In this document: positions 16,884 to 38,686 of the stretch, in pieces
Numbering within the stretch: position 1 is the stretch's first letter
Layout of the letters: every line of letters starts with the position of its first letter
DNA from: a virus
IMG/VR virus record: IMGVR_UViG_3300031851_006073
Span: 1-60,799 of that record
DNA: 60,799 nucleotides
Direction: 5' to 3' (one strand)
Position numbers and translations under genes: made by a program
The notes under the pieces: model-generated
The model's database searches: none
What the model was told of the DNA's origin: nothing
What the model saw: the letters and a program-made list of their open reading frames with translations, nothing else

Positions 16884-17574
16884 ACTTGGAATCATTCAAC
16901 CGGGCAGATTAGGAGACATCATTATATGTCTGCCTATAGCAAAGTATTATTTTGATCGAGGTTACCAAATATTATGGCCAGTTCTTTGCGACTATATTGA
17001 TATATTTAGAGACATAGATTATGTCGAGACGATTAATTTAAAATGTAGTATAAACAATTCGGTTCTTCGCGCGAAAGAAATATGTAAGCAAGCTCAATAT
17101 AAGGAGCTAGACCTGTCCTTCGGTTTTTTTGGGAGCTCGGCTGAGCAATACTATTCAAATACTAATTTTGCAAAAAACTTCGTTGAAGCAAAATATAAAC
17201 TATCAAATGTTCCGATTGAAGAAAGATGGAAGCTTGACTTCAAAAGAGACTATTCTCGAGAAAATTCCTTATTTAAAAAAATGATTAAGAGCTCAAGTTA
17301 TGTACTTGCTCACGAAAATTCGTCACAAGGAAACCATGTTTTTATAGATGGAGACAATATAATAAAAGCCATGCCAATTAAAGGCTACAATATTTTTAAT
17401 TGGATGCAAATCATTGAAGGGGCTGAAGAAATATATTGCATTGATAGCTCTTTTTGTAACCTGATTGAATCTCAAAAACACTTAAAAGATAAAATTAAAA
17501 AATACATCCCCGCAAAGCAATTCGCTGCAGGCTGGGGCAGAACAACCTTGGACAATAATTGGCAGATATTATGA
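16876..17574 (+). CDS. Glycosyltransferase, heptosyltransferase-like (GT9-like)
   Basis: The 232-residue product begins MSRLGIIQPGRLGDIIICLP, which closely matches the start of GT9 heptosyltransferases and similar enzymes. The C-terminal half has IYCIDSSFCNLIESQKHL, in the place of the donor-binding loop. It is shorter than GT9 enzymes (about 330). I use the ATG at 16876, which lies eight bases inside the previous gene, since the motif begins right there. It may add a sugar to the phage or host glycan made by the cassette. The exact family is uncertain. Confidence 0.65.
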   Translation: MSRLGIIQPGRLGDIIICLPIAKYYFDRGYQILWPVLCDYIDIFRDIDYVETINLKCSINNSVLRAKEICKQAQYKELDLSFGFFGSSAEQYYSNTNFAKNFVEAKYKLSNVPIEERWKLDFKRDYSRENSLFKKMIKSSSYVLAHENSSQGNHVFIDGDNIIKAMPIKGYNIFNWMQIIEGAEEIYCIDSSFCNLIESQKHLKDKIKKYIPAKQFAAGWGRTTLDNNWQIL

Positions 17575-18548
17575 AATGGTTAATTTTTTCAACAATTGGT
17601 AAAAATCCTGGAGATGAATTTATAAGAGTAGGCGTAGAATACCTAATAAGCAAAATTGATGAAAACGCAATAATTAAAGTCCTCGATAAAGAAACTAGCG
17701 ATATCTATAACAGTTCTAATTTTGACAAATGCATATGGGCAGGGATGCCTGTTTTTTGGAGTTTATATTCAAACAATAACTGGGCTATTCAATGGTGGAA
17801 AAATATGACAGGACAATGGCCCTCTCAAAATAAAAATAATTTCTGCGTACTTGGTGCAGGCAGCTTTCAAGACTGGGAAAATATATATCGAGGAGCAGAC
17901 ATCGATGGATTATCTAGAAGTGCGCGGCAATTAAAAGATCATTCATTCGAGGTTGTCGCTAGAGATCCTGTAGTTAATGATATATGTAAATCAAGCTTTA
18001 AAGTATTAACTTGCCCTGCTATTTTTTCTTGCCAAAACAAACCAAAAACACAATCAATTAAAGCCTGCAACCTGATGCCAGGAGGCTCGCACTACAGAGA
18101 CTTTAACCCGAATCAATCTCAAATCTGGGACTCAATACAGAAACCTGTAGCAGATTCACTAATTAAAAATAATTTTGTTTTCTTTGCTCACAGTAATAAA
18201 GAATACCAACTTGCGCAACAGCTTGGCTGGAATCAAAAATCAATTATAAATTACAGTGGTAATACAAATTTGGTTTTAGAAAATTATAGAAATGTAGATA
18301 AGTTTTTTGGCAATCGAGTACATGGCTGCATAGTTTCTCGAGGCAATGGCGCAGATGTAATTTCGTGCGGTTACGACTCAAGGCAAGAGGCTGTCAAATT
18401 ATCTGGGGCAAAAACATTCTTACCTTCGCAGATTGATGTTCAAAAAATTTCGCAATGGGCGCAATCAGATCCTATTTTAGACAAACCAGATCTTGCTAGT
18501 CTAGAGCTTGAATATATAGACATATTAAAATCTTTTAAATATATATAA
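17571..18548 (+). CDS. Polysaccharide pyruvyl transferase-like protein
   Basis: The 325-residue protein has IGKNPGDEFIRVGVEYLI near the start and FGNRVHGCIVSRGNGADVIS near the end, the two signature parts of the polysaccharide pyruvyl transferase family, which adds pyruvate ketals to sugars using phosphoenolpyruvate. The R-x-H motif is present as NRVHG. The ATG at 17571 overlaps the stop of the gene before. The family is broad and some members have other roles in surface glycans, so the reaction is inferred. Confidence 0.75.
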   Translation: MKWLIFSTIGKNPGDEFIRVGVEYLISKIDENAIIKVLDKETSDIYNSSNFDKCIWAGMPVFWSLYSNNNWAIQWWKNMTGQWPSQNKNNFCVLGAGSFQDWENIYRGADIDGLSRSARQLKDHSFEVVARDPVVNDICKSSFKVLTCPAIFSCQNKPKTQSIKACNLMPGGSHYRDFNPNQSQIWDSIQKPVADSLIKNNFVFFAHSNKEYQLAQQLGWNQKSIINYSGNTNLVLENYRNVDKFFGNRVHGCIVSRGNGADVISCGYDSRQEAVKLSGAKTFLPSQIDVQKISQWAQSDPILDKPDLASLELEYIDILKSFKYI

Positions 18549-18577
18549 ATATCTACTATTCTAATTATTATCATACA

Positions 18578-19609
18578 ATGAAAAAAATTATAGTAACAGG
18601 AGTAACGGGTCAAGACGGCAGCCATATGGTTGACTATCTTCTAAAAAATACAGATTATAAAATATACGGCGCAGCGCGACGCTTAAGCGTAAAAAACCAT
18701 GAAAATATTCTGCATTTAGAAAATGAATCACGATTTGAATTGATTAATATGGACCTGAATGATGCGCATAGTATTAGAGATGTCGTTATTGATATTCAGC
18801 CAGATTATTTCATTAATTTTGCTGCACAGTCATTTGTGGCCGGAAGTTGGGATTATCCAATTCAAACATGGGACACAGATGCTGATGCAGTTTTACATAT
18901 TTTAGAGTCAATTCGTAGGTTTGCCCCAAACTGTAAATTTTATAATGCAGGTTCTTCAGAGGAATTTGGAGATGTAATTTGTAGCCCTCAAGACGAAAAC
19001 CACCCTCTCAGACCGCAAAGTCCATATGGCGCCGCGAAATGCGCAGCTAGGCATATTGTCAGGGTTTACAGGGAATCTTACAACCTGTACGCAGTTCAAG
19101 GTTGGCTATTTAATCATGAAGGATCAAGAAGGGGCTTGGATTTTGTAACAAGAAAAATTAGCCATACGGTAGCCAAAATAAAATTAGCTATAGAAGACAA
19201 AAAACAAACACCTGTTTTAAAACTCGGAAACCTAGAAGCTAAAAGAGATTGGAGCGACGCAGAAGATTTCATGGAAGGCGTTTGGCTCATGCTTAATCAA
19301 GAAGAACCTAAAAATTATGTTCTAGGCAGTGGCGAAATGCATACCGTGAGAGAGTTTTTAAATGAAACTTTAAAATGTGCAGGAATTGAATTTAAATCTT
19401 CTGGATCTGAAGATAATGAAAAATATTATACCTTAGATGGTCAATTAATTTTTGAGGTAAGCCCTAAATTCTACCGACCTGCAGAAGTTCATGAGTTATG
19501 CGGAGACTGTAATTTAGCCGAAAAAGAAATGGGGTGGATTAGGAAGACTGACTTTAAGGGTTTAGTAAAAAAAATGTATCAGAATGACTACATGCAATTA
19601 AGTCGATGA
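18578..19609 (+). CDS. gmd: GDP-mannose 4,6-dehydratase
   Basis: The 343-residue short-chain dehydrogenase begins KKIIVTGVTGQDGSHMVDYL (NAD(P)-binding GxxGxxG), carries NAGSSEEFGD with the catalytic Ser or Thr and Glu, and SPYGAAKCAARHIVRVYRES with the Y-x3-K pair. GWLFNHEGSRRGLDFVTRKI is a close match to the Gmd substrate-binding region. It should turn GDP-mannose into GDP-4-keto-6-deoxymannose. The next gene, overlapping by four bases, performs the following step to GDP-fucose. An AT-rich TATTAT box lies six bases before the start, with a weak -35. Confidence 0.93.
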   Translation: MKKIIVTGVTGQDGSHMVDYLLKNTDYKIYGAARRLSVKNHENILHLENESRFELINMDLNDAHSIRDVVIDIQPDYFINFAAQSFVAGSWDYPIQTWDTDADAVLHILESIRRFAPNCKFYNAGSSEEFGDVICSPQDENHPLRPQSPYGAAKCAARHIVRVYRESYNLYAVQGWLFNHEGSRRGLDFVTRKISHTVAKIKLAIEDKKQTPVLKLGNLEAKRDWSDAEDFMEGVWLMLNQEEPKNYVLGSGEMHTVREFLNETLKCAGIEFKSSGSEDNEKYYTLDGQLIFEVSPKFYRPAEVHELCGDCNLAEKEMGWIRKTDFKGLVKKMYQNDYMQLSR

Positions 19610-20562
19610 AAAGTAAAAAAGTTTTTGTAGCCGGCCACAAAGGAATGGTTGGGTCATCGGTTTTAAATAATTTAATCAAAAATGGTTATAAAAATCTACT
19701 AACCAAAACTCGCAGAGAATTAGATTTAACAAAACAAAAAGAAGTTGAATCTTTTTTTTGCAAAGAAAGACCCGAAGCTGTTGTTATATGCGCAGCAAAA
19801 GTTGGCGGTATTTTAGCGAACAGCAATTATCGCGCAGATTTTATATATCAAAATTTACAAATTGCATCTAATATAATATATGCTTCTCACAAATTTAATG
19901 TGAGTAAGTTAATTAATTTAGGCAGCTCATGCATATACCCCAAGAATGCAGACATTCCGATTAAAGAAGAAAGCTTACTAACAGATGTATTGGAAAAAAC
20001 AAATGAGCCATATGCGATCGCTAAGATAGCGGCGATTAAATTATGCGAAAGTTTTTACGATCAATATAAAAATAATTTTTATTCAGTCATGCCCTGCAAT
20101 ATGTACGGCCCTAGAGATAACTTTAACTTAAAAAGTTCTCACGTATTACCAGCTCTTATTAGAAAAGTTCATGAAGCAAAAGAAAATAATGCAAAAAATA
20201 TTGAAGTATGGGGCACAGGCAAACCCCTTCGTGAATTTTTGTATGTTGATGATTTAGCTAATGCGATAACATATTGCCTTGAATATGTCGATGCTAAGAA
20301 TATATATGATGAAAAAATTTCTCATATTAATTGTGGTTCTGAAGATGAAGTATCTATTCTTGAATTAGCGAATATAATACAAGACATAATCGGCTATCAA
20401 GGTGATATATTATTTGACTCATCTAAACCAGATGGAACTTATCGTAAAAAAATGGATAATAATAAATTATTAAAAATGGGATATAAGCCTACAACACCAC
20501 TTACAGACGGCATTAAAAAAACATGCTCTTGGTATATAGAAAATAAGCAAAAATTCGTGTAA
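19606..20562 (+). CDS. fcl: GDP-L-fucose synthase
   Basis: The 318-residue protein has KVFVAGHKGMVGSSVLNNL (NADP-binding), VGGILANSNYRADFIYQNL, LGSSCIYPKNADIPIKEESL and YAIAKIAA, with the catalytic S, Y and K, all diagnostic of GDP-4-keto-6-deoxymannose epimerase/reductase. Together with Gmd it should make GDP-L-fucose from GDP-mannose. The pair plus nearby glycosyltransferases suggests that fucose or a related deoxysugar is added to the virion or the host surface. The length is near the usual 310-320. Confidence 0.93.
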   Translation: MKSKKVFVAGHKGMVGSSVLNNLIKNGYKNLLTKTRRELDLTKQKEVESFFCKERPEAVVICAAKVGGILANSNYRADFIYQNLQIASNIIYASHKFNVSKLINLGSSCIYPKNADIPIKEESLLTDVLEKTNEPYAIAKIAAIKLCESFYDQYKNNFYSVMPCNMYGPRDNFNLKSSHVLPALIRKVHEAKENNAKNIEVWGTGKPLREFLYVDDLANAITYCLEYVDAKNIYDEKISHINCGSEDEVSILELANIIQDIIGYQGDILFDSSKPDGTYRKKMDNNKLLKMGYKPTTPLTDGIKKTCSWYIENKQKFV

Positions 20563-22631: not shown

Positions 22632-23084
22632 ATGTCATATTACTTCAAAAAAAATTCTAGACCAGATTCAAATAAAACAAAAACAACAATGAATCATCTA
22701 TTAAATGATTTATTCCTTAACTTCTCATCACCCGAAGAAACAGATCATTTTAATGATTTAGATGATTATCCAGTTCAAGCTAATGTTATTGCGAGAGAAA
22801 AAGAAACCGTAATAGAACTACTAACTCCAGGAATACCCAAGGAAGACATCAACATCGAATGCGACAACGGAAAGCTCTCTGTCTCTTATAAAACCCCAAA
22901 AGAAGAATCTATTGAAGGAGAGTATATTCAGCAACAAATCTTTAAAGATGGATTCAAGAATACATTTAAGCTTACGTCAGAATTGGATTCTGATAAAATA
23001 TCTGCATCAATGAACAACGGTATATTGCAAATTAAAATCCCTCGCAAAAAAGGAAAGTTATCAAATAAAATAAAAATTGATTGA
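22632..23084 (+). CDS. Small heat-shock protein Hsp20
   Basis: The 150-residue protein contains an alpha-crystallin domain from about residue 50 to the end: VIELLTPGIPKEDINIECDN, LSVSYKTP and the closing ISASMNNGILQIKIPRKKG. Such proteins hold unfolding proteins and stop aggregation. Cyanophages also carry Hsp20 genes. The start is preceded by an AT-rich region about 35 bases long with no clear Shine-Dalgarno site. Downstream, an outer-membrane-like gene has its own promoter that overlaps this stop codon. Confidence 0.92.
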   Translation: MSYYFKKNSRPDSNKTKTTMNHLLNDLFLNFSSPEETDHFNDLDDYPVQANVIAREKETVIELLTPGIPKEDINIECDNGKLSVSYKTPKEESIEGEYIQQQIFKDGFKNTFKLTSELDSDKISASMNNGILQIKIPRKKGKLSNKIKID

Positions 23085-23771: not shown

Positions 23772-23794
23772 GAAATCTAGTAAATGTTCCATAG

Positions 23795-23820
23795 GCCACC
23801 CAGAAATGGGTGGCTTTTTT
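23795..23820 (+). terminator. Intrinsic terminator after OMP-like gene
   Basis: GCCACCC (23795-23801) pairs with GGGTGGC (23808-23814) around a six-base loop, followed by six T. Confidence 0.9.
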
Positions 23821-23843
23821 GTGTAATTATAGTCTCTAAATAT

Positions 23844-23849
23844 TATAAT
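23844..23849 (+). promoter_or_regulatory. -10 box of PSD1 gene
   Basis: A perfect TATAAT ends six bases before the ATG at 23856. The -35 region is poor; a GTGTAATTAT stretch lies at 23821-23830. A leaderless start is predicted. Confidence 0.5.
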
Positions 23850-23855: not shown

Positions 23856-26126
23856 ATGAAAAAACTAATTTTATTATTCCTATCATCAATCTATTGCTTC
23901 GGCGATAAACTTTACTTTAACAACGGAAAAGGTCTAAAAGGAGATGTTCTTGAGGCGAATGCGACTCACGCTCTAATAAAAAGATCAAGCGATTTGCAAC
24001 TATTCAAAATAGCAATAGATTCTTTAACAGAAGATAATCAGGCTTATATTAAAAACAACTTCCCGCCCAGTCACACAGCTTTGCCTAAATTCAAGAAACC
24101 TCTATCAGATAATGATTTAAATACTCATGCGAGGTACATCGACAGTTTAATTGAAGCAAAATTAAGATCATATAATCTAAGACCAAATAAAGAGGTTAAC
24201 GATGCTACGTTTTTACGTAGATCATATTTAAAAGTTATCGGACGAACACCATCCTTAATCGAAGTAGAAGCTTTTTTAAATAATAAGGATAAAAATAAAA
24301 GATCTCAGCTAATTGATCAACTTTTAGGGAGCGAAGGGTATGTAAGTCATTGGTTTAATTTCTGGGCGGATATCTTAAGAATAAAAGACAGGTTAAATAA
24401 TAGAGTCTCAGGAATACCATACAAAAATTATGTAAAAGAATTTATATCAAATAATAGACCATACGACGAATGGGTTAGAGAAATGCTTTCTTCGTCCGGA
24501 GCTCTTTGGGTAAAAGGGAACGAAGGGGTTAGTTATTTCGCTCGAGACGTAAACATGCCTCTCGACAACATGGCAAACACAGTGCGGGTTTTTCTTGGAA
24601 CTAGTCTTGAGTGCGCTCAATGCCACGATCACCCTTTTGATCGCTGGACACAAAAGCAGTTCTATGAAATGGCGGCATTTACCAGCGGATCAACAAACTT
24701 AAGAAGAAGAGGTGTCGACAATTTGGGTCAATTCAACAGGCTAGTTGGAGCCGAACAACGAAGGCTTGAAAAAGCAGGTGAACCGCAAAAATCCAGGCAA
24801 CTAAGAAATGAATCTAGATCTATTCAAGATGTCCTTCAAACAGGTCTTGATAGTTTAGGTTCTGGCAAAATTAATTTGCCAAATGATTATCAATACGATA
24901 ATGCAAAACCAAGCGAAGTACTTTCAGGAAAAACAATTTTTGGTCAAGAAATTAACATAAAAACTAAAACTCCAGAAGCAGGTTCTAGGGAAATTTACGC
25001 TAATTGGTTAGCGTCAGACTCTAATCCAAGATTTACTGCGGTAATTGTAAATCGCCTATGGAAAGAGGTTTTCGGCTTAGCTTTAATCGAGCCTCTAGAT
25101 AATATGTTTGATGATACATTAGCTACAGATGCAAAGCTGCAGCTTCATTTAGAAAAAGTTATAGTTGCGCTAGACTATGACTTGAAAGAGTTTCTCAGGA
25201 TACTTTATAATACAAAAACTTTTCAAAGACAATCTGTCATTAGAGATGTTATCCCAAAAGATAATAAAGATCAATCTATACCTATTGAGGTAAAATGGAT
25301 TGTAGCTGGCCCAGACCCAGAAAAACAATCAAAAAATGCAATACCTTATTTTTACCAAGGCCCAATACTTGAAAGAATGAGTGGCGAACAAATTTGGGAT
25401 TCATTAGTAAATTTAACGTTTAACGATATAGACTCCAGAAAGTTAGAGCAAAACACAAAAGGTTACGAACAGTTTGAAAATTTCTCACCTATGACTGGAG
25501 AAGAATTATTTCAAGATCTTATGGCCAAAATTAATAAAACAGAAAGGCCAAAAATGGCAAGCGAAACAAAGTTTTCGGAACCAATAAATACCGATTGCCC
25601 AATCAAACCTGGAAGAGCTATTGATCCAACCTTATTAGCTCTCAACGAAAATGGAGAAACAATTGCATTTTGCTGTGAATCTTGTGTTGATAAATTCAAA
25701 TCTCAACAACAATCCAAGCAAGATGAATATAAACAAAATCACGTGAAAGACCGCAACTCCGTAAGAGCTTCTGAATTACCCTCCCCCGCGCCCGTAGGGC
25801 ACCTTATTCGCGAGTTTGGCGGTTCAGACAGAGAGCAGATAGAAAACTCAAATAAAAGCGCTTCTGCAACGCAGGTGCTAAACCTACTCAATGGTTTTGT
25901 GGAAACTAGATTATTAAAAAATAAAAACTTTGAAATTATTAAAGCGATTGAATCTCAAAAATCGTTAAACGATAAAGTTAAAGTAGGATATAAATATATA
26001 TTGAACAGAGAACCTTCTTCAAAAGAAATGAAAATATTTACTGACAATATTAAAGATAAAAAAGAGGCATATAAGGAAATAATATGGACGTTAATCAATA
26101 CTCATGAATTTATATTTGTGAAATAG
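23856..26126 (+). CDS. PSCyt2-PSD1 (DUF1549/DUF1553) secreted protein with SHD1-like and Cys domains
   Basis: The 756-residue product has a signal peptide (MKKLILLFLSSIYCFG), an SHD1-like domain to about 70 (KGLKGDVLEANATHALIKRS, then LTEDNQAYI), then DUF1549/PSCyt2 to about 300 with C253-A-Q-C256-H257, DHPFDRWTQKQFYEMAAF. A cysteine cluster at C581 and C606-C607-x2-C610 resembles a YHS or TRASH metal site. DUF1553/PSD1 motifs include SREIYANWLASDSNPRFTAV. The family is typical of Planctomycetes and Verrucomicrobia; its function is unknown. I use the ATG at 23856, six bases after TATAAT; an upstream in-frame start lies within the terminator. The DUF1501 gene nearby is its usual partner in bacteria. 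Confidence 0.85.
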   Translation: MKKLILLFLSSIYCFGDKLYFNNGKGLKGDVLEANATHALIKRSSDLQLFKIAIDSLTEDNQAYIKNNFPPSHTALPKFKKPLSDNDLNTHARYIDSLIEAKLRSYNLRPNKEVNDATFLRRSYLKVIGRTPSLIEVEAFLNNKDKNKRSQLIDQLLGSEGYVSHWFNFWADILRIKDRLNNRVSGIPYKNYVKEFISNNRPYDEWVREMLSSSGALWVKGNEGVSYFARDVNMPLDNMANTVRVFLGTSLECAQCHDHPFDRWTQKQFYEMAAFTSGSTNLRRRGVDNLGQFNRLVGAEQRRLEKAGEPQKSRQLRNESRSIQDVLQTGLDSLGSGKINLPNDYQYDNAKPSEVLSGKTIFGQEINIKTKTPEAGSREIYANWLASDSNPRFTAVIVNRLWKEVFGLALIEPLDNMFDDTLATDAKLQLHLEKVIVALDYDLKEFLRILYNTKTFQRQSVIRDVIPKDNKDQSIPIEVKWIVAGPDPEKQSKNAIPYFYQGPILERMSGEQIWDSLVNLTFNDIDSRKLEQNTKGYEQFENFSPMTGEELFQDLMAKINKTERPKMASETKFSEPINTDCPIKPGRAIDPTLLALNENGETIAFCCESCVDKFKSQQQSKQDEYKQNHVKDRNSVRASELPSPAPVGHLIREFGGSDREQIENSNKSASATQVLNLLNGFVETRLLKNKNFEIIKAIESQKSLNDKVKVGYKYILNREPSSKEMKIFTDNIKDKKEAYKEIIWTLINTHEFIFVK

Positions 26127-26488
26127 CCCCACTTCTTCTCTCTAAAAAAATATACCATATTTTTCTTCATATATAACCAACCAAATTTATCGGTATATAT
26201 GTAATCTTCATGCTCCGGAGTATTATATATCCAACCCAGTCTCTGAGAATACATCCAACACATAGAAGTCTTCTCTTTGTACGTTCCGTATACTTTGCCG
26301 ATATTTCTATAATTAAACCAAATGGGCTTAGGCTTTCTTTGACACATCCTTCTCCATTCTCCCAGATTTAAAGGTTGAGTATACTTGGCTTGCTCTTTGC
26401 ACCAATCACAATTATCTAAAAAATCTTGCCTTTGTAATCTAGCCCATAAAATACTGGGTATAACGAACATAAGTAATAAAAACCTCAT
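26102..26488 (-). CDS. Small secreted protein with WxY repeats
   Basis: The 128-residue protein starts with a signal peptide (MRFLLLMFVIPSILWA). It carries four cysteines in the first half, including C-D-W-C, and aromatic repeats in the second half (MYSQRLGWIYN, YTDKFGWLYM, VYFFREKKWGYF). Such GW-Y repeats are common in secreted proteins of Verrucomicrobiota and related bacteria, from memory. It runs against the PSD1 gene and its last 25 bases overlap that gene's end. A GTGTA motif lies nine bases before the ATG. The function is unknown. Confidence 0.65.
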   Translation of the reverse strand: MRFLLLMFVIPSILWARLQRQDFLDNCDWCKEQAKYTQPLNLGEWRRMCQRKPKPIWFNYRNIGKVYGTYKEKTSMCWMYSQRLGWIYNTPEHEDYIYTDKFGWLYMKKNMVYFFREKKWGYFTNINS

Positions 26489-26492
26489 TATA

Positions 26493-26502
26493 TATGATAC
26501 AC
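26493..26502 (-). promoter_or_regulatory. GTGTA-type promoter candidate for WxY-repeat gene
   Basis: The minus strand reads GTGTATCATA with nine bases between the GTGTA core and the ATG at 26488. Confidence 0.45.
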
Positions 26503-26508
26503 TTTCTG

Positions 26509-26538
26509 TTGACTTTTCTCAAAATTGTGTAATAATCT
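26509..26538 (+). promoter_or_regulatory. Promoter of DUF1501 gene (both motif types)
   Basis: TTGACT (26509-26514) is followed after 15-18 bases by TAATAA or TAATCT, and a GTGTA motif is at 26527-26531, 10 bases before the ATG at 26542. The exact -10 cannot be chosen by eye. Confidence 0.5.
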
Positions 26539-26541
26539 ATT

Positions 26542-27834
26542 ATGAACTTTAATACAATAGATGAATTAGGAAGAAGAGAATTTATAGCTCATGCAGCTAA
26601 AGCGTGTTTCGGCGTGGGATTGATGCCGATGGCAGGAGCATATATACATAACAATGTTAGCGCTTTGAACCCTGGAGCAAGAGTTCCGACAGCAAGGCAC
26701 GTTATTTACTTAAACATGGGGGGAGCCATGTCTCACCTTGATACATTTGGACCAAAGCCAGATGCGCCAGATATCCAAGGCCCTACTAAATCTATTTCAA
26801 CAAGCGCAGACGGGGTAATTCTTTCTGAAAACTTGCCAAAAACTGCAGAACTCATGCATCACGCAGCAATAATTAAAACGATGAACACAAGCCAAGGGGC
26901 TCACGAACAAGCAAGTTATTTAATGCATACAAGCTACCTTAAACGAGGTACAATTGTTCACCCTACATTTGGTAGCTGGGTATCTAAACTTTCTGGCTCA
27001 ATTAATAGAACGATACCTAGTAACGTTAAAATAGGTGGGGGCGGAGGCGGCGCGGGCTTTTTAGAATCAAAATATGGAGCGTTACCAATTAACAATCCAA
27101 ACTCGGGATTAGCTAACAGCAAAATGGCTTCATACTTAGATCACGAGCATTTTCAAAGCAGAATATCTATTGCAGAAGCTTTGAATGAAAATTTCTCCAC
27201 TCAGTTTCCGCAGAAAAAAGTAAGAGCTTATTCCGACTTATATAAAGATGCAATTAAATTAATGAATAGCAATGATCTAAATGCTTTTGACATTACAAAA
27301 GAGCCAGAGTCAACAAGCAATCTTTATGGTCAAACTAATTTTGCAAAAGGATGCTTATTAGCAAGAAGGCTCGTAGAGCATGGCGTAAGATATGTTGAGG
27401 TAACAAGAGGGGGATGGGATACGCATGATAATAACTTTGATAGAGTAGCAGCAAATTGTACCGATATCGATCAAGCTCTAAGCGGTCTGTTAATTGATTT
27501 AAACCGAAGAGGTATGCTTTCTAACACCTTAGTAGTTTTAACTTCTGAATTTGGAAGAACTCCAAACATCAATGGAAGAGACGGAAGAGATCACTGGCCT
27601 TATTGTTTTACGGCTTTTTTGGCAGGAGGAGGAGTTAAGGGAGGAATGACTTATGGAGAAACCGACAAAACAGGCCGCACCCCCGTAGAAGGCAAGCCTG
27701 TTAAGCCTGAAGACTTGAATGCAACTATTGCACATACTTTGGGCTTATCATTAAATGATTACCAATACTCTCCTTCCGGAAGACCGTTTACAATAGCCCA
27801 TAAAGGCGAGCCTTTGCTTGATATCTTGGCATAA
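26542..27834 (+). CDS. DUF1501 family protein with Tat-like signal
   Basis: The 430-residue protein has an N-terminal GRREFIAHAAKACFGVGL with twin Arg at 11-12, like a Tat export signal. The body has GGAMSHLDTFGPKPDAPD (about 58-76), GGWDTHDNNFDRV, LTSEFGRTPNINGRDGRDHW and NATIAHTLGLSL, which are diagnostic DUF1501 motifs; the family resembles the alkaline phosphatase and sulfatase superfamily with D, H and R likely binding metal. In Planctomycetes and Verrucomicrobia, DUF1501 genes usually sit next to PSD1 genes, as here. The length is near the usual 420-480, so it appears intact. The natural substrate is unknown. Confidence 0.88.
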   Translation: MNFNTIDELGRREFIAHAAKACFGVGLMPMAGAYIHNNVSALNPGARVPTARHVIYLNMGGAMSHLDTFGPKPDAPDIQGPTKSISTSADGVILSENLPKTAELMHHAAIIKTMNTSQGAHEQASYLMHTSYLKRGTIVHPTFGSWVSKLSGSINRTIPSNVKIGGGGGGAGFLESKYGALPINNPNSGLANSKMASYLDHEHFQSRISIAEALNENFSTQFPQKKVRAYSDLYKDAIKLMNSNDLNAFDITKEPESTSNLYGQTNFAKGCLLARRLVEHGVRYVEVTRGGWDTHDNNFDRVAANCTDIDQALSGLLIDLNRRGMLSNTLVVLTSEFGRTPNINGRDGRDHWPYCFTAFLAGGGVKGGMTYGETDKTGRTPVEGKPVKPEDLNATIAHTLGLSLNDYQYSPSGRPFTIAHKGEPLLDILA

Positions 27835-27883: not shown

Positions 27884-28897
27884 TTAAAAGTCGTCTTCTA
27901 AAGCTCCGCTTTGTTGATATTCTCTAACTCTTCTCTCAAAGAAGTTTCCCATAGCTTGAACGTCCACAACTTCACTTAACCAAGGAAAAGGGTTTTTATC
28001 GCTTGGGAAACGATAATCTAAGCCAATAGCTTCTAACCGGCGATTACCAATGTAGTACATATAATCTACAAACATATCTGCATTTAAACCAAGAATACCC
28101 GTAGGTAATACATCATGCGCATAAGCTATCTCAAGCTCAACGGCTTTTTTCATATGGTCGACAAACTCATTTTGAATCTCTTTGGTCCAAATCTCTGGGT
28201 TTTGCTCTATTAAAGTATTAATTAGATACGTTCCAAAAGCGATGTGAGAGCTTTCATCCCTTAAGGTGTATTTAATTTGATCTGATATTCCTTGAAGTTT
28301 GTTTTGGCGACCTAAAGCCAATAACATTGCAAAGCCGCTGAAGAAAAATGTACCCTCGCAAACAATCCAAAAAGTTAGGAAATTGCGAAGAATTTCTTGC
28401 TTGCCTTCTATAGTATGAGCGCTAAAATCTGGTCGACTAATATCATTAGTGATAGTCATCAAAAAGTCATCTTTTGCTTTAATACTTGGTATTGTCTCGT
28501 AAGCCGCAAAAACCTCTTCTATATCCAAATCTAAACTATCGCAAACGTATACTACCGTAAGATTGTGAAGACTTTCTTCAAAAGCTTGACGAAGTATATA
28601 CTGACGACATTCAGCATCAGTAATAAACCTAAAAGCCGAAAGAAGCAGGTTATTGCCAACCAAAGACTCAGATCCCGCAAAGAACCCAAGACATCGTTTA
28701 ACGAGTAATTTTTCATCTTCTGTGATTTCATCGTTCTTCCATTGTTTAATGTCGTTCTGCATACTAATTTCAGTAGGCATCCAATTATTGGCGCAACTTT
28801 TTAAAAATAAATCCCACGCATATTTATGTTTATGAGGTAATATTCTATTTACCCCCGCGATATTTTCTGTTAATAATTCTCCTGTTTTATCATTCAT
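27884..28897 (-). CDS. nrdB: Ribonucleotide reductase small subunit, class Ic-like
   Basis: The 337-residue protein is an R2 subunit holding the metal centre for making deoxynucleotides. Metal ligands are E77 (FFAGSESLVGNN), E108, H111 (EESLHN), E181, E215 and H218. The first ligand is Glu rather than the usual Asp, and the position of the radical Tyr (H111+4) is V115. These two changes are the mark of Chlamydia trachomatis class Ic enzymes, and stretches such as ESLVGNN and RQAFEE match it well, as recalled. A manganese-iron centre without tyrosyl radical is therefore likely. I use the ATG at 28897, six bases after TACAAT; a start 30 bases upstream would lie in the -35 box. Confidence 0.93.
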   Translation of the reverse strand: MNDKTGELLTENIAGVNRILPHKHKYAWDLFLKSCANNWMPTEISMQNDIKQWKNDEITEDEKLLVKRCLGFFAGSESLVGNNLLLSAFRFITDAECRQYILRQAFEESLHNLTVVYVCDSLDLDIEEVFAAYETIPSIKAKDDFLMTITNDISRPDFSAHTIEGKQEILRNFLTFWIVCEGTFFFSGFAMLLALGRQNKLQGISDQIKYTLRDESSHIAFGTYLINTLIEQNPEIWTKEIQNEFVDHMKKAVELEIAYAHDVLPTGILGLNADMFVDYMYYIGNRRLEAIGLDYRFPSDKNPFPWLSEVVDVQAMGNFFERRVREYQQSGALEDDF

Positions 28898-28903
28898 AGT
28901 TTT

Positions 28904-28932
28904 ATTGTATAATAAATAACGTTTCAAGTCAA
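28904..28932 (-). promoter_or_regulatory. Sigma70-like promoter of nrdB
   Basis: On the minus strand, TTGACT and TACAAT are 17 bases apart and the ATG is six bases after TACAAT. This sets the nrdB start at 28897 and predicts a leaderless message. Confidence 0.8.
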
Positions 28933-28940
28933 GATTAAGT

Positions 28941-29210
28941 TTACTCTAATTTGTTTAATAGATGTTGATATTTTTCTATATCTATCGCAACTCTTATGGA
29001 TTCATCAGCTTCAGGATTTAATGATAGATATTTTTTTCCCCTATCAATTATTTCTTCTAACGTTTGAATGTAAGCTGTTTCTGCATAATCTCTTTGCTTT
29101 CTGTAATTTATAGAATCTATATTAGAGTTAATTCTCCTAAGGTCTTTCCTGATTAACTTGCATCTAACTACAGCTTCCTTAAAGGACTTTAAATGCTTGA
29201 ATCTCGTCAT
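28941..29210 (-). CDS. Small helical hypothetical protein between nrdA and nrdB
   Basis: The 89-residue protein is basic in the first half and helical throughout (RFKHLKSFKEAVVRCKLIRK, ETAYIQTLEEIIDRGKKYL). I do not recognise it. Its start overlaps the last base of nrdA, so it is made from the nrdA message, and the nrdB promoter sits just after it. It might be a regulator or partner of the reductase, but nothing in the sequence shows it. Confidence 0.6.
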   Translation of the reverse strand: MTRFKHLKSFKEAVVRCKLIRKDLRRINSNIDSINYRKQRDYAETAYIQTLEEIIDRGKKYLSLNPEADESIRVAIDIEKYQHLLNKLE

Positions 29211-31627
29211 TATTGACAGCTTTCACATATCTCTCCATTTCTCATAGCTTCAATGCTGCAAGCAGAAGGGTCTTCTTTTTTAACCTCTTCTGCGTGAGAC
29301 TTTTCTACCTTGGAAGCCGCTCTGTTTCGGAGGTAATAAGTAGTTTTTAATCCAGCCTCCCAGCAAGCTACATAAACATCATTTAAATATTTCAATGAAG
29401 TAGATTTATTATAAAGATTAAAACTCACAGCTTGATCGATCCATTTTTGGCGAACTGAATTGCATTCAATTAATTTAAACATATCGCGGTCAAATGCGGT
29501 TTTATATTTTTCTTTTAATTCCGTTGGGATATCCCCATTTAATAAAGATAGGTCTCCGTCAACACTCTTCACGAGCTTGGCTATTTCGCTATTCCATAAT
29601 CCTGCAGATTTCATATCATTGATGAAATGTTGATTAGTAATAAAAAAATTGCCGCTTTTATTCTCATAAACAAATAACACAGAGAAATTAGGTTCTATAC
29701 TTTGTTCGACTCCATTTATATAACCAATTGTAGCTGTGGGGGCGATAGCCATAACATTACTATTTCGCATTCCATGGTTGCAAATATGCTCCCTAACTTC
29801 GTCCCAATTTAAACTTGTATTAATTTCAGGTCTCTTACCTTTATACTTCATTAACTCAGAATATGAATCGATAGGCAATTTATTTTGACTCCAAAGAGAG
29901 CCATTAAATGTAGCGTATTTTCCTTTTTCTTTTGCTAACTTAGAGCTGGCCAAAATTGCATGATAAGAATAAAACTCAAATAATTTATCATTAAACTCAA
30001 CGGCTTCATCACTATCAATATTAATATTCATTCTATGACAGACATCATGTAGAGCCATTATACCTAAACCAATAGGTCGATGCTTTAAATTACTATTTTC
30101 CGCCTCCTTAGTCGGATAAAAATTAAGATCCACAACACTATCTAGCGCTCTAATAGCGGTATGTATTGTATTCTCTAACTTGCCATAATCTAAAGCGTTA
30201 TCATCATTTAAATGATTAAGTAAATTTACCGAGCCTAAATTACAGACAGCAGTTTCTCCAACGCTAGTTTTTTCCCCCTTATCGTACTTAGAGGATTTAG
30301 TGTGAAGAGTAATCTCTGTACATAAATTGCTGCTATGAACAACGCCTTCGTGTTGATTTGTGTAACGTATATTACATGGATCCTTAAAAGTATTCCATGG
30401 GTGCGAAGTTTCGAATAAAACCTTGAGCATCTTTTTCCACAGCTCTTTTGCTGGAGTAACCCTATAGTTTTTTATTAAACCCTCTTCAGCTTTCTCGCAT
30501 AATTCGTTATATTTCTTATCGAACTCTTCCCCGAATAGATCATGCAGACCGGATTCTTTTGGGTCGAAGAAGTACCAAGCGTCTTTGCCCTGAACTCTGC
30601 GCATAAATTCATCAGGAATCCAAGAAGCTGTATTCATATCGTGGCACCTCAATCTGTCATCTCCAGTGTTTCTTCTTAGATTTAAAAAATCTTCAAAATC
30701 TAAATGCCAAGGTTCTAAATAAGCGCATCCAGCTCCAGGCCTTTTCCCTCCTTGATTTACTGCTACAAGAAGGTCGTTATAGATCTTAAGCCAAGGAACA
30801 AGTCCGCTAGAAACACCGTTGGTCCCCTTAATGTGTGAACCTGTTGATCTAAAAGGGGTGACATCAAGACCTAGACCTCCAGCGTATTTGCTCTTGCGAG
30901 CTTCTTGCCAAGCCCCATCAAAAATACCGTCAATACTGTCATCAAAAGTATTTAAATAACACGAACTTAATTGAGATTTGACCGTCCCACTATTAAAAAG
31001 AGTAGGAGTCGAAGAGGTGTATAAAAATTGGCTAAACATATCATAATACTTGATTGCCCACGCTTCCTTGTCTTCCTCGTTAAGAGCGAGCCCCATAGCT
31101 ACGCGCATCCAAAAAGACTGAGGGGCCTCCATAATTTTATCGTCTTCTCTGATAAAATACCTATCCGCAAGAATTTGTATTCCTAAATATTTAAACGAAA
31201 GATCTCTGCGTATCTTAATAGCTTCTGACAGCCTAGTTAAATCATACTCAAGCATTCTTGGGTTTAATTTTTCGCTTTTAACTAATTTTTTAACCCCTTG
31301 AACGAAACTTTTTCGGTATTGCAGCTTAAAAACATCTGAATCAACACCCTCTTTAAATACTTCTTTATATACTGTGTTCAACAGCAGCCTGCCTGCAGCG
31401 TAACCATAATTAGGTTCTTTTTCTATTTTTTCTCTCGCACTTAAGATAAGAGCTGTATCAATTTCCTTGGTTGTGATTTTATCGTATAATTGCAACTGAG
31501 CGTCTAGCACAATTTCACTCACAGACACGTCAGAAATGTCATCACATGCGCGTTCAACATTAGCATTAATTTTCTCGACATTAAAGTCTTGAAGCCTACC
31601 GTTTCGTTTTTTTACTTTTATATCCAT
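29210..31627 (-). CDS. nrdA: Ribonucleotide reductase large subunit
   Basis: The 805-residue subunit carries out reduction of ribonucleotides. An ATP-cone-like domain fills about 1-95 (VKKRNGRLQDFNVEKINANV). The catalytic part has LSSCYLNTFDDSIDGI (first redox cysteine), CTEITLHT and CNLGSVNLLNHL, and the closing C-E-S-C-Q is the swinging tail cysteine pair. NSNVMAIAPTATIGYINGVE is the expected active-site region. It should pair with the class Ic-like NrdB nearby. It has its own promoter and diverges from the polymerase genes, so DNA building-block supply and polymerase expression may be switched together. Confidence 0.96.
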   Translation of the reverse strand: MDIKVKKRNGRLQDFNVEKINANVERACDDISDVSVSEIVLDAQLQLYDKITTKEIDTALILSAREKIEKEPNYGYAAGRLLLNTVYKEVFKEGVDSDVFKLQYRKSFVQGVKKLVKSEKLNPRMLEYDLTRLSEAIKIRRDLSFKYLGIQILADRYFIREDDKIMEAPQSFWMRVAMGLALNEEDKEAWAIKYYDMFSQFLYTSSTPTLFNSGTVKSQLSSCYLNTFDDSIDGIFDGAWQEARKSKYAGGLGLDVTPFRSTGSHIKGTNGVSSGLVPWLKIYNDLLVAVNQGGKRPGAGCAYLEPWHLDFEDFLNLRRNTGDDRLRCHDMNTASWIPDEFMRRVQGKDAWYFFDPKESGLHDLFGEEFDKKYNELCEKAEEGLIKNYRVTPAKELWKKMLKVLFETSHPWNTFKDPCNIRYTNQHEGVVHSSNLCTEITLHTKSSKYDKGEKTSVGETAVCNLGSVNLLNHLNDDNALDYGKLENTIHTAIRALDSVVDLNFYPTKEAENSNLKHRPIGLGIMALHDVCHRMNINIDSDEAVEFNDKLFEFYSYHAILASSKLAKEKGKYATFNGSLWSQNKLPIDSYSELMKYKGKRPEINTSLNWDEVREHICNHGMRNSNVMAIAPTATIGYINGVEQSIEPNFSVLFVYENKSGNFFITNQHFINDMKSAGLWNSEIAKLVKSVDGDLSLLNGDIPTELKEKYKTAFDRDMFKLIECNSVRQKWIDQAVSFNLYNKSTSLKYLNDVYVACWEAGLKTTYYLRNRAASKVEKSHAEEVKKEDPSACSIEAMRNGEICESCQ

Positions 31628-31639
31628 ATTGTGTTTAAA

Positions 31640-31668
31640 ATATTAACATTTAGAGGGGAAATTGTCAA
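31640..31668 (-). promoter_or_regulatory. Sigma70-like promoter of nrdA
   Basis: TTGACA and TAATAT are 17 bases apart on the minus strand, with 12 bases to the ATG at 31627. It lies back to back with the promoter of the polymerase genes. Confidence 0.75.
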
Positions 31669-31701
31669 CAGGAATATAATAGTGTTAATAACTTTTCTGT
31701 C

Positions 31702-31730
31702 TTGACATTTAACTGTGTTTAGTATAGAAT
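31702..31730 (+). promoter_or_regulatory. Sigma70-like promoter of polymerase genes
   Basis: TTGACA (31702-31707), 17 bases, TAGAAT (31725-31730), then seven bases to the ATG at 31738. Confidence 0.78.
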
Positions 31731-31737
31731 ATGTAGC

Positions 31738-32511
31738 ATGTTACCATTATTTAAAAGCCACTTTTCTATAGGCAAAAGCATATTAACGCTTGAAGATCCA
31801 ATTACACATAAAGAAGGCAAGTCGGACAGTGTTTTTTCAATTGCTATAGAAAATAACTTAAAAGAAGTAGTTCTTGTCGAAGATTCGTTAACTGGATTTT
31901 TGCAAGCCAAAAAACAAACAGACAACCTTGGATTGAAATTAATTTTTGGTTTAAGAATAAACATGAAAGAAGATGCAAAAACCAACCCAAAAGAAGAAAG
32001 CCAACAATCCTCTCATAAGATTATAATCTTTGCTAAAAATTCAAACGGTTGTAAATTGTTAAATAATATATCAAGCCTAGCTAATACGGAAAACTATAAT
32101 TGCGTCGATCGTAAAACTTTAAAAAAATACTGGGAAAATAAAGATTTATTATTAGCTGTTCCCTTTTATGATTCGTTTATATTTAATAATTTAATTAAAT
32201 TTTGCAACTGCACACCAAATTTTGACTTCTGCAAACCGATATTGTTTCTAGAAAGCAACTCTCTGCCTTTCGATAATTTTATAGGCGACAGAGTTAAGGA
32301 GTACGCGCAAAATAATAAACTTGAGACACAAACAACTAAAAGTATATATTATAAAAACAAAAAAGACGTAAAAGCCTTACAAACTTATAAGTGCATAACA
32401 GGCAGAAGCTTCGGCAATAAAACGTTATCAAAACCAAACTTAGATCACTTCGGTAGCAATGAATTTTGCTTCGAAAGCTGGAAGGAGAAAAATGAAAGAA
32501 TCACTACTTAG
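31738..32511 (+). CDS. PHP-like domain of split DNA polymerase III alpha
   Basis: The 257-residue protein resembles the N-terminal PHP domain of DnaE. LPLFKSHFSIGKSILTLEDP stands where bacterial enzymes have a HxHxS motif and is degenerate, and FSIAIENNLKEVVLVEDSLT with LGLKLIFGLRI matches the following strands. Later regions resemble the end of PHP (LQTYKCITGRSF). It is made as a separate protein, followed by an exonuclease and a polymerase gene. With metal ligands mostly missing it is probably structural. It overlaps the next gene by 20 bases. Confidence 0.7.
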   Translation: MLPLFKSHFSIGKSILTLEDPITHKEGKSDSVFSIAIENNLKEVVLVEDSLTGFLQAKKQTDNLGLKLIFGLRINMKEDAKTNPKEESQQSSHKIIIFAKNSNGCKLLNNISSLANTENYNCVDRKTLKKYWENKDLLLAVPFYDSFIFNNLIKFCNCTPNFDFCKPILFLESNSLPFDNFIGDRVKEYAQNNKLETQTTKSIYYKNKKDVKALQTYKCITGRSFGNKTLSKPNLDHFGSNEFCFESWKEKNERITT

Positions 32512-33136
32512 ATTTCAAAAAAATAAAAAGTATTTACTGTTTGATTATGAAACATGTAATTTAAATCTTGTATCAAATAATAAACCATGGCAACTAGCGT
32601 TTCTTGTGATAGAAAATAATAAAATTGTAGAGCAAAAAGATTATTGGCTTAAGTGGGACGAACTAAACGTTTCTCCTGATGCGGCTAAGATCACAGGCTT
32701 TACAGAATCAAAGTACAAGAAAAAAGCTTCGTGCCCCAAAGTCGCGCTAGATCATTTAGAGAAGTATTTGTATGACGACTCCTATCTTAAGGTTGGGCAC
32801 AACTTACTAGGGTTTGATGTTTATATGCATAATGTTCACCGCAAATTAATTGATGAAAATGCAGAAACAGATTTTAGCTATACTGAGCACTTAGTAGATA
32901 CCTTATGCCTTGCAAAAGCTCTCAAAAAGAGAATAAAGCTAGATAAAGATGATAATTTTTTAGCGTGGCAATACCGACTTAACCACCTGATTGAAAGAGG
33001 CTTAAGTTGCAACTTAAGGCAGTGCTGCAAAGATTTTGATGTTGACTTTGATGAGAAAAAATTGCATGATGCCTTATACGACATTAAAGTTAACTACGAA
33101 GTATTTAAAAAAATGATATGGGAAATAGAAGTATAA
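32492..33136 (+). CDS. DnaQ-like 3'-5' exonuclease
   Basis: The 214-residue protein is a DEDDh-type exonuclease: YLLFDYETCNLNL (D-x-E, about 16-20), VGHNLLGFDVYMHNVHRKL (D in motif 2) and LHDALYDIKVNYEVF (H-x4-D, motif 3). It should proofread for the polymerase. I chose the ATG at 32492 because GGAAGGAG, a strong Shine-Dalgarno site, lies just before it, rather than a longer reading upstream. It sits between the PHP and polymerase genes, as the exonuclease domain lies inside PolC. Confidence 0.85.
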   Translation: MKESLLRFQKNKKYLLFDYETCNLNLVSNNKPWQLAFLVIENNKIVEQKDYWLKWDELNVSPDAAKITGFTESKYKKKASCPKVALDHLEKYLYDDSYLKVGHNLLGFDVYMHNVHRKLIDENAETDFSYTEHLVDTLCLAKALKKRIKLDKDDNFLAWQYRLNHLIERGLSCNLRQCCKDFDVDFDEKKLHDALYDIKVNYEVFKKMIWEIEV

Positions 33137-35694
33137 TGAATTTTACAGAACAATTCGAAAAGTATGAAGACTGCGCCCCTCCAGGAGTGAAGCTTCCTGA
33201 GATTAAAATTGAAAAAAAATATTATGAAATGCTTGAAGCGTCAGAAGATATTTCTAACTTCGACTTTCTTCGAAAGCTTTGCTATAAAGGGGTATACGAT
33301 AGAGGGGTAGATAAATTTAAAAACAAGAAAGATTACTTTGAAAGAGCAAAATCGGAATTAAAAATTTTAGATGAACTAGGATTTATAGATTATATTTTAT
33401 TAAACTGGGATATAATAAATTATTGCCACGAAAATGATATTCCGACTGGCCCAGGAAGAGGGTCAGCCGCAGGCTCTTTAGTATTATATCTAATTGGGGT
33501 TACAAATGTCGACCCCGTTAAGTATAGTTTGTTTTTTGAGCGCTTTGTGTCCAAGAGTAGGGCGAGAAAAATAGAAAAAGACGGAGAAACGTATCTTGAC
33601 GGCAGTCTTTTGGCGGATATTGATAATGATATCGCATATGAAAGACGAGCTGAAGTTATCGAGTATATTGAAAGAAAGCATCCCTCTCGTACAGCAAAAA
33701 TATTAACCCTTAACACTCTTAGCGGAAAACTTTGCGTGAAAGAATGCGGCAAAATTGTTGGAGAACTTTCTGAACAAGAAGTTAATGAAGTCAGTAGTAC
33801 TATTCCAAAAAAATTCGGTATTGTTATGCCTATTTCGTCCGCAACAGAAGAAAGTGAAAAATTTGCAGATTGGGCGGCAAATAATCCAGAAGTTTTCGAG
33901 ATCTCTCTCAAACTAGAAGGTTTAAATAAAAACTCTGGCGTCCACCCTAGTGGCATTGCGATTTCTTTTCAAAAAATCACAGACATTTGTCCAATTCAAA
34001 AATCGAATGACGGAGCTTTAGTTACGGGTTACGACATGAATTGGGTGGCGGAGCTGATGGTTAAATTTGATATCTTAGGATTAAGGACTTTAAGTGTGAT
34101 TTATGATGTATGCAGAAACCTAGATATTGACATCTCATCGGTAGACCTTAATAACGCGGACGTATACACGCCGCTACGCTCCCTCAGCACGCCTCACGGA
34201 CTCTTTCAATTAGAATCTGACACAAACTATAGAGTCTGCAAAAAGATCAAACCTAAAGACTTAGAGCAGCTTAGCGCAGTTGTAGCAATTGGAAGGCCTG
34301 GAGCCTTAGAATTTTTAGATGATTACGCAACATATTCTGAGACGGGGGAAGCTCAGGTTATTCATGAATTTTTTAGTGACGTTTTAGATTATACGGGAGG
34401 AATCCCCCTTTACCAAGAGCAGCTAATGCAAATGGCAGTTAAGGTTGGATTCACGCTTGATGAAGCGGAGCAGCTTAGAAGAATTGTAGGTAAGAAAAAA
34501 GTCGACCAAATGCCTGCTTGGAAAAAAAAGATTGAGGACAAAATCCAGCAAAATAATCTTCCTTCAGAAATCTCTCATATACTATGGAGCGTCGCAGAAG
34601 ATAGCGCAAATTATTCTTTTAATAAATCGCACTCTCTTGCATACGCAACTCTGTCTGCTTGGACAGCATATTTAAAATTCAATTACCCAAGAGAATTTTT
34701 TATATCCTTATTAAAAATGACCAAATACGAACCATCTCCGCAGGAAGAAATATCAAAAGTTTCTAAGGAATTGTCCAGTTTCGGCATTAAACTTTTATGC
34801 CCTGATCTAGCTAAGTCTAGTATGGATTTTTCTTTTGAAGAAAAGAATATTAGATTTGGGTTAAATAGTATTAAAGGCGTAAGTGAGAAATCACTTCAGT
34901 CTCTCAGAGACTTTCGTTCTACCGAGACTCCCACAAAATATGATATCTTTCTTGCGGCAAAGCAGGCTGGATTAAATATTGGAATCTTAAGTTCGTTAAT
35001 ACAAGCTGGAGCTTTAGAAAGTAAAGGCGAAAACAGGTCTTTAATGGCTCTTGAAGCTCAAGCGTTTAACCTTCTTACTGATAGAGAGAAGCGTAATTTT
35101 ATTTCTCTTGGAGAAAAATATGAATACAAACTTCTAAACTGCATAGCAGACGCCAAAAAAGGAGACTTGGTCGGAGATGACGGTAAACCATTAATGAAAG
35201 AGTCTAGATTCAAAACGTTCAAGAAGAAATATGATGTTTACAAATTAATTTATGACAAAAATAAAATGTATCAAGGTTTCGCGAATTGGTATTTTGAAAC
35301 AGAACTTCTTGGATATAGCCATAGCTCATCCCTTAAATCGTGTTTTATTGATTCTTATAAAGCTTTAAAAGATTCAAGGGATTTAAATCTCATGGATTCG
35401 GATGAAAAAGGTAAATTCATTGGAGTCGTGGAAGACTGTATTAAAAGAACTTCTCGCAACGGGAACAAATATATGAAGCTGTCAATTACAGATGAACACG
35501 GCAAATATGACGCCATGCTTTTAAATTCCAGAAGAGGCAATTTTTATGACAGATATTTCGAATCAAAGAAGAAAACTCCATCAAAAAAGAATATAATCGT
35601 AGTGTATGGAAGAAAAGGGGAAGACATAGTATTTCTGGACTCATTAAACATAATGGATGAAAAGATATACATGAAAATGTCTGATATTAAATGA
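33136..35694 (+). CDS. dnaE: DNA polymerase III alpha catalytic part (DnaE-like)
   Basis: The 852-residue protein is a C-family polymerase without its PHP domain. Seen are IPTGPGRGSAAGSLVLYLIG (palm), LLADIDNDIAYERR with the two catalytic Asp residues, LMVKFDILGLRTLSVI with the third, and NKSHSLAYATLSAWTAYLKF in the fingers. A helix-hairpin-helix part (IRFGLNSIKGVSEKSLQ) and an OB fold (GKFIGVVEDCIKRTSRNG) follow. The order is that of DnaE, not PolC. The ATG at 33136 shares a base with the exonuclease stop. It should copy the phage genome with the two preceding subunits. Confidence 0.93.
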   Translation: MNFTEQFEKYEDCAPPGVKLPEIKIEKKYYEMLEASEDISNFDFLRKLCYKGVYDRGVDKFKNKKDYFERAKSELKILDELGFIDYILLNWDIINYCHENDIPTGPGRGSAAGSLVLYLIGVTNVDPVKYSLFFERFVSKSRARKIEKDGETYLDGSLLADIDNDIAYERRAEVIEYIERKHPSRTAKILTLNTLSGKLCVKECGKIVGELSEQEVNEVSSTIPKKFGIVMPISSATEESEKFADWAANNPEVFEISLKLEGLNKNSGVHPSGIAISFQKITDICPIQKSNDGALVTGYDMNWVAELMVKFDILGLRTLSVIYDVCRNLDIDISSVDLNNADVYTPLRSLSTPHGLFQLESDTNYRVCKKIKPKDLEQLSAVVAIGRPGALEFLDDYATYSETGEAQVIHEFFSDVLDYTGGIPLYQEQLMQMAVKVGFTLDEAEQLRRIVGKKKVDQMPAWKKKIEDKIQQNNLPSEISHILWSVAEDSANYSFNKSHSLAYATLSAWTAYLKFNYPREFFISLLKMTKYEPSPQEEISKVSKELSSFGIKLLCPDLAKSSMDFSFEEKNIRFGLNSIKGVSEKSLQSLRDFRSTETPTKYDIFLAAKQAGLNIGILSSLIQAGALESKGENRSLMALEAQAFNLLTDREKRNFISLGEKYEYKLLNCIADAKKGDLVGDDGKPLMKESRFKTFKKKYDVYKLIYDKNKMYQGFANWYFETELLGYSHSSSLKSCFIDSYKALKDSRDLNLMDSDEKGKFIGVVEDCIKRTSRNGNKYMKLSITDEHGKYDAMLLNSRRGNFYDRYFESKKKTPSKKNIIVVYGRKGEDIVFLDSLNIMDEKIYMKMSDIK

Positions 35695-35700
35695 TTTACA

Positions 35701-38669: not shown

Positions 38670-38673
38670 ATAT

Positions 38674-38683: not shown

Positions 38684-38686
38684 CTT

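Follow-up and report, generated by a model that had tools for sequence, protein, structure and literature searches.

Introduction

Cyanophages carry psbA and psbD, core host genes that have been repeatedly taken up, exchanged between phages and held under strong purifying selection, with one of the two genes found more widely. Here we describe a host-type gene pair with a seemingly similar history in a window of 60,799 bases, the virus record IMGVR_UViG_3300031851_006073 of IMG/VR. The pair encodes a PSD1 protein (PSCyt2/DUF1549 and PSD1/DUF1553 domains) and a DUF1501 protein. We think it probable that these genes form a host-derived, exported auxiliary metabolic cassette in which DUF1501 is the key part.

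Both families are strongly expanded in Planctomycetota and Verrucomicrobiota. A study that noted PSCyt2/PSD1 proteins in Rhodopirellula discussed one of them, RB10051, in connection with stress and proposed a redox function (PMC2754498), and the same domains, often located near sulfatases, were called domains of unknown function in freshwater Verrucomicrobia (PMC5615132). DUF1501 modules have been linked to species of the Planctomycetes-Verrucomicrobia-Chlamydiae (PVC) group with intracellular membranes (PMC4452313). DUF1501/DUF1800 pairs travel with chitin synthases, and a twin-arginine translocation (Tat) signal has been noted (PMC5122149).

Results

The window contains phage genes for a terminase large subunit (TerL), a DnaB-like helicase, a UvsX-like recombinase, a tail fibre and a DNA polymerase of the DnaE/Pol III alpha type, together with a ribonucleotide reductase (RNR) small subunit recognized by Pfam. 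An outer-membrane-protein-like gene is followed by PSD1, a small reverse gene, DUF1501 and then the RNR genes. The two proteins and their principal features are as follows.

23856..26126, plus strand: PSD1 protein (PSCyt2/DUF1549 + PSD1/DUF1553), 756 aa; from Pfam, an AlphaFold2 (AF2) model and alignments
24612..24626, plus strand: invariant CxxCH motif of PSD1 (C253-A-Q-C256-H257), a possible c-type haem site; from alignment
25596..25715, plus strand: TRASH/YHS-like cysteine insert in the PSD1 domain; from the sequence C..FCCxxC
26542..27834, plus strand: DUF1501 protein, 430 aa, with a Tat-like RR signal and a predicted alkaline phosphatase/sulfatase-superfamily fold; from Pfam, AF2 and Foldseek
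26572..26577, plus strand: twin-arginine codons R11-R12 of the DUF1501 signal; invariant in 69/69 sequences

A protein scan of IMG/VR contigs for close relatives yielded 34 viral loci encoding DUF1501 (at 61-98% identity with that of the window) and 23 encoding PSD1, the former usually accompanied by the latter, and profile-based scans recovered at least 427 DUF1501 and at least 109 PSD1 viral stretches. With so many matches to both families in viral databases, the window pair is not an isolated oddity. Neither protein was found in an isolated phage by tblastn against 50,697 phage records, and neither family is represented in PHROGs or NCBIfam. A DUF1501 domain is named in the uncultured Caudovirales phage protein A0A6J5M742 (BFVD; 14% identity to the window protein), so the existence of phage DUF1501 as such is already on record; our literature search found no study discussing that protein.

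The nearest bacterial DUF1501 sequences (63-81% identity) come from the family of Opitutia bacterium UBA3151 (Verrucomicrobiota). The original prediction that the pair points to a PVC host is thereby supported and narrowed, as the nearest apparent donors fall within one Opitutia family. The donor orthologue is present as one copy each in 36 of the 42 genomes of this family, which also accounts for every one of the 31 matches of this kind in a set of 273 genomes from the order. Five Opitutia genomes that we counted hold 10 to 55 DUF1501 genes apiece, and the phages therefore share one specific orthologue. At the host locus the order is PSD1-DUF1501-PSCyt1/LRR-SufS, where SufS (cysteine desulfurase-like) is named from its sequence; PSD1 and DUF1501 are both present in 25/25 host loci examined, and PSCyt1/LRR and SufS follow the pair in 21 of these 25. 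The host PSCyt1/LRR protein had no blastp match in the viral loci. A search for PSCyt1 genes found none in nine phage contigs and, having matched nowhere at all, does not itself show their absence.

Phylogenetic analysis placed at least four viral DUF1501 clades among sequences of Opitutia metagenome-assembled genomes, and the PSD1 tree contains three viral clades that correspond to those of DUF1501. A single acquisition, modelled as one viral DUF1501 clade, was rejected by the approximately unbiased test with p 2.2e-45, or 1.6e-7 without the long-branched sequence of locus L058 (L numbers denote individual loci). A quick family-wide DUF1501 tree of 108 representatives, approximate and built without bootstrap, showed 11 virus/bacterium changes, at least nine of them forced by well-supported branches. 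The single phage clade contemplated in the original prediction is thus not what the trees show, and exchange with hosts has therefore been repeated. Nor did we see the recent pick-up from a single host with decayed motifs that would have undermined that prediction; there are several clades and their motifs are intact.

Comparison with the DNA polymerase revealed a second layer of exchange. The polymerases of L013 and L015 are distant from that of the window (60-64% identity) and their DUF1501 proteins are near (82-90%), with values of 60% and 90%, respectively, for L013. The L018 group has the converse pattern, with 81-82% identity in the polymerase and 92% in NrdB versus 72% in DUF1501 and 48% in PSD1. 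This incongruence indicates that the cassette travels separately from the core genome, passing between phages and being re-taken from hosts.

Ratios of nonsynonymous to synonymous substitution (dN/dS) were 0.04-0.05 for PSD1, 0.02-0.03 for DUF1501 and 0.02-0.03 for NrdB, values that are approximate because several pairs approach saturation at synonymous sites. Both genes are under purifying selection about as strong as that on NrdB. Viral contig collections can hold host fragments, and for genes of host origin such as these one might suspect passenger DNA, host contigs wrongly classed as viral or chimeras, in each case without relevance to infection. However, the same cassette junctions recur in many independent contigs, giving no sign of a chimera; a strong terminase match (E < 1e-20) in 15 of the 24 large contigs tested means that most are genuine phages; the dN/dS values are as low as those of RNR; the viral clades have diversified; and a promoter-like phage motif described below is found in the phage copies only. 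This explanation is already largely contradicted, and we regard it as barely credible. The placement of the pair in a real phage, assumed by the original prediction, is instead borne out by the surrounding phage genes and the recurrent junctions.

The two partners are not retained equally. DUF1501 lacks an adjacent PSD1 in L017, L025, L034 and L036, directly following NrdB in L025 and L036, and contigs of about 195 and 206 kb encode DUF1501 without a detectable PSCyt2 domain. On the tree, the fewest state changes that explain presence and absence of PSD1 number three. Of the two, DUF1501 is the harder to dispense with, and phages can do without PSD1. These observations also bear on the proposal that one or both proteins are packaged in the virion or act in lysis. 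Such a role would suit two apparently exported proteins, and a GTGTA element found 5′ of PSD1 and DUF1501 also precedes several genes of the minus-strand block with the terminase and tail fibre. Nevertheless, the pair sits with replication and nucleotide genes, in some phages directly after NrdB; its members are host orthologues with signal-like N-termini that are exchanged with hosts, and some related phages lack PSD1, which sets it apart from core virion genes. We consider a virion or lysis function quite improbable.

In the PSD1 open reading frame (ORF; 23784/23856-26126), Pfam identified PSCyt2/DUF1549 (2.4e-45), PSD1/DUF1553 (4.6e-24) and a C-terminal DUF4214. The first two domains exceed their curated cut-offs, with 155.5 versus 29.8 bits for PF07583 and 85.6 versus 28.5 bits for PF07587. 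Although the longest frame begins at 23784, we adopted the start at 23856 given in the original prediction, because homologues begin at that methionine and an intrinsic terminator is predicted at 23793-23816, inside the longer frame. From this start the N-terminus is Sec-like. Within PSCyt2, residues C253, C256 and H257 are invariant across 45 aligned phage and bacterial sequences, and CxxCH occurs in 72/72 distinct viral PSD1 proteins, a set for which one of two search patterns included CxxCH. The motif is a possible c-type haem site. The cysteine insert is weak in the phage protein (TRASH E 0.031, YHS E 0.24) and scores better, at 3.4e-4, in L060, a host orthologue, and host L170 PSD1 has an extra PSCyt1 cytochrome domain. 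In a second phage lineage the PSD1 proteins are shorter, at about 580-595 aa. The confident AF2 model (predicted local distance difference test, pLDDT, 87.9) did not identify PSD1 by fold, as the search of the PDB returned an N-terminal SHD1-like domain (match 2hbp), weak linker-like C-terminal matches and nothing beyond these.

The DUF1501 match (PF07394) is full length, covering profile positions 1-390 of 390 at 7.3e-111 and 371.5 versus 27 bits. Residues R11-R12 are invariant in the phage and bacterial sequences in a Tat-like context, as are H121, W292-D293, EFGRTP336-341, R349 and H351; D350 is found in 67/69. Signal types of both proteins were judged by eye. The pair is therefore as originally described, intact-looking and apparently secreted, by Sec-like (PSD1) and Tat-like RR (DUF1501) N-termini. 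Foldseek analysis of the confident DUF1501 model (pLDDT 89.9) returned sulfatases and alkaline phosphatases at E 4.9e-7 and probability 1.00, with 201 PDB matches at E <= 0.001 and template modelling (TM) scores of about 0.4 only. The predicted core fold is that of the alkaline phosphatase/sulfatase superfamily, which fits an ester hydrolase. The function originally suggested for the pair, in polymer breakdown or at the cell surface, is still conjectural. A classical S1 sulfatase was rejected, as the CxPSR/formylglycine motif is absent and the residues after the second core strand read GAHEQAS; whole-protein profile comparison with host sulfatases by hhalign likewise aligned just 87 C-terminal columns (E 0.0042, probability 8%). 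In the model, invariant His121 lies at the beginning of the helix that follows the second core strand, a position where, judging from the topology, the nucleophile might be expected. Metal-dependent ester processing by DUF1501, coupled at the envelope to a haem- or metal-bearing PSD1 partner, is a tentative and rather doubtful proposal.

The predicted fold also enters into the main rival explanation, surface remodelling, in which the exported pair would modify an envelope polymer carrying sulfate, fucose or phosphate groups. Additional phages could then not adsorb to the infected cell, or the cell would break open more readily when infection ends. The neighbouring genes for a GDP-mannose dehydratase, an epimerase, glycosyltransferases and a pyruvyl transferase would then belong to the same programme. 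Sugar-nucleotide and glycosyltransferase genes do occupy 15358-20562 of the window, epimerase genes directly precede PSD1-DUF1501 in L007, L008, L010 and L011, and some bacteria have DUF1501/DUF1800 genes in clusters that include chitin synthase and a sugar epimerase (PMC5122149). Other phages, however, have the cassette flanked by RNR and polymerase genes, without neighbouring sugar genes, and the donor is a near-core single-copy gene beside cytochrome-domain genes and SufS rather than part of a patchy polysaccharide locus. On balance we judge surface remodelling unlikely.

The intergenic features of the cassette are listed below.

23793..23816, plus strand: intrinsic terminator in the interval between the outer-membrane-protein-like gene and PSD1; 10-pair stem, 6 G-C, T tail
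23821..23849, plus strand: promoter-like GTGTA...TATAAT element 5′ of PSD1; recurrent motif
26102..26488, minus strand: small signal-bearing protein of 128 aa, no known family, between PSD1 and DUF1501; from conservation
26494..26522, minus strand: divergent promoter-like TTGAGA-N17-TATCAT site of the small gene; consensus match only
26509..26536, plus strand: promoter-like TTGACT-N16-AATAAT with TGTGTA extension, 5′ of DUF1501; motif

Among phage loci, which are related to one another, GTGTA lies close to the PSD1 start codon in 13/15, some with TTGAC and TAATAAT, compared with 0/25 host loci and a background of 62/399 large phage ORFs overall. The motif recurs before other window genes, and the site 5′ of DUF1501 shares the TTGAC class with the DnaB, NrdA and PHP genes of the window. 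This recurrence backs the separate promoters envisaged for the pair, as judged from motifs. Hairpins resembling the terminator also lie 5′ of PSD1 in L003, L004 and L009. The small secreted gene described between the pair is likewise present, on the minus strand and with a signal-like N-terminus by eye; it is kept at 51-74% in phages L003, L004, L007 and L010, with C27, C30 and C49 invariant, and is absent from other phages with the PSD1-DUF1501 pair.

Near relatives of the window largely keep the gene order DUF5824, HNH, Hsp20, outer-membrane-like, PSD1, DUF1501, NrdB, NrdA, PHP, polymerase and protease, the last being an ATP-dependent protease (phrog_4871). Alternative cassette sites in phages are after NrdB, after epimerases, before DUF5824 and after the protease gene. 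A phage transfer-messenger RNA (tmRNA; Rfam RF00023, E down to 1e-50), missed by ARAGORN, ends 7 to 73 bases 5′ of DUF1501, or just 5′ of PSD1 in L015 (L030:9588-9984, L015:7225-7658, L026:6207-6570, L027:9617-9984, L031:9621-9984 and L035:9619-9981). L015 also contains a manA RNA motif (L015:18550-18751; RF01745, E 1.5e-17). A second DUF1501 gene from another clade (34-36% identity) lies near the first in the same contig at L023:12902-14233. Opposite DUF1501 in a phage without PSD1, L031:11336-12160 encodes a kinase-like protein with an adenosine 5′-phosphosulfate kinase match (E 2.5e-12) and a cytidylyltransferase-like part.

Elsewhere in the window, 15358-20562 holds a row of glycosyltransferases, a polysaccharide pyruvyl transferase, a GDP-mannose 4,6-dehydratase and an epimerase, and 22632-23084, 5′ of the cassette, encodes an Hsp20 small heat-shock protein that evolves fast relative to the cassette. 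A split DNA polymerase III-like set at 31738-35694 has its PHP domain, DnaQ-like exonuclease and DnaE-type polymerase in separate genes. The protein adjoining the terminase (45022-45981) matches an ERCC4 nuclease and a homing-endonuclease-associated repeat, 46996-47739 is perhaps a phage sigma factor, its match to sigma-70 region 2 being weak and falling just short of the cut-off (E 8.9e-5), and 51236-56902 is an ORF of 1888 aa with no PHROGs match.

Discussion

Several features of an auxiliary gene are found in the pair, namely host derivation, phage genes on both sides and purifying selection. In the scenario that we favour, a phage would have taken PSD1 and DUF1501 from the core PSD1-DUF1501-PSCyt1/LRR-SufS locus of an Opitutia host, leaving the third gene (PSCyt1/LRR) behind, and the captured genes would have been placed behind phage-type promoters. 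Their products, presumably exported to the periplasm by Sec (PSD1) and Tat (DUF1501), may supplement the corresponding system of the host at a time when host gene expression is failing, in the way that cyanophage psbA, sometimes with psbD, does for photosystem II. As the genes have been taken several times, kept intact and apparently supplied with phage promoters, the two exported proteins probably matter during infection.

Some points weigh against this reading. The host, Opitutia (Verrucomicrobiota), is predicted from gene phylogeny alone, and a comparison of window positions 28000-47999 with CRISPR (clustered regularly interspaced short palindromic repeats) spacers from 42 genomes of this Opitutia family gave gene-level matches only and no convincing spacer. 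Haem binding by the PSD1 CxxCH motif is putative, and the PDB fold search gave no cytochrome match for the predicted structure. The direction of transfer on some branches is likewise a deduction from the trees. We found no demonstrated function for DUF1501 or PSCyt2/PSD1 in the literature. Finally, the sequences themselves show the genes, the repeated transfers, the purifying selection, a single donor orthologue, the retention of DUF1501 where PSD1 is absent, the predicted DUF1501 fold and the invariant CxxCH; export, promoter use, host identity and timing are inferred.

A broader reading is that PVC phages rely widely on an exported redox/hydrolase module made up of PSD1 and DUF1501, which was acquired on at least nine occasions and marks a core envelope process that is limiting in infection, with PSD1 being c-type cytochrome-like; we hold this to be possible, if somewhat doubtful. 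The repeated choice by phages of one near-core orthologue among dozens of paralogues tells which of them is physiologically important and suggests that infected cells are limited by its activity. The pair is small and testable, with DUF1501 alone as the minimal unit, and it belongs to a marine large-phage lineage that has no close relatives among the isolates searched and is tied to a specific Opitutia family as predicted host.

Among known systems, the bacterial PSCyt2-PSD1/DUF1501 pair of Planctomycetota and Verrucomicrobiota is the same as the phage pair in families, order, strand, CxxCH and EFGRTP/RDH motifs. The phage copies differ in lacking the downstream PSCyt1/LRR and SufS genes and the PSCyt1 insert of host L170 PSD1, in having promoter-like phage motifs and, in some, in the reverse small gene between the two. 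The DUF1501 model matches alkaline phosphatase and sulfatase enzymes, and its C-terminal strand-loop aligns with the DNG site of sulfatases. However, the TM-scores of these matches are only about 0.4, the CxPSR/formylglycine motif of sulfatases is absent and His121 is invariant. By analogy, the history of the pair resembles that of cyanophage psbA/psbD in repeated capture, exchange, purifying selection and the greater prevalence of one partner. Unlike psbA/psbD, the phage pair is apparently exported, its predicted hosts are Opitutia and the case is known from sequence alone.

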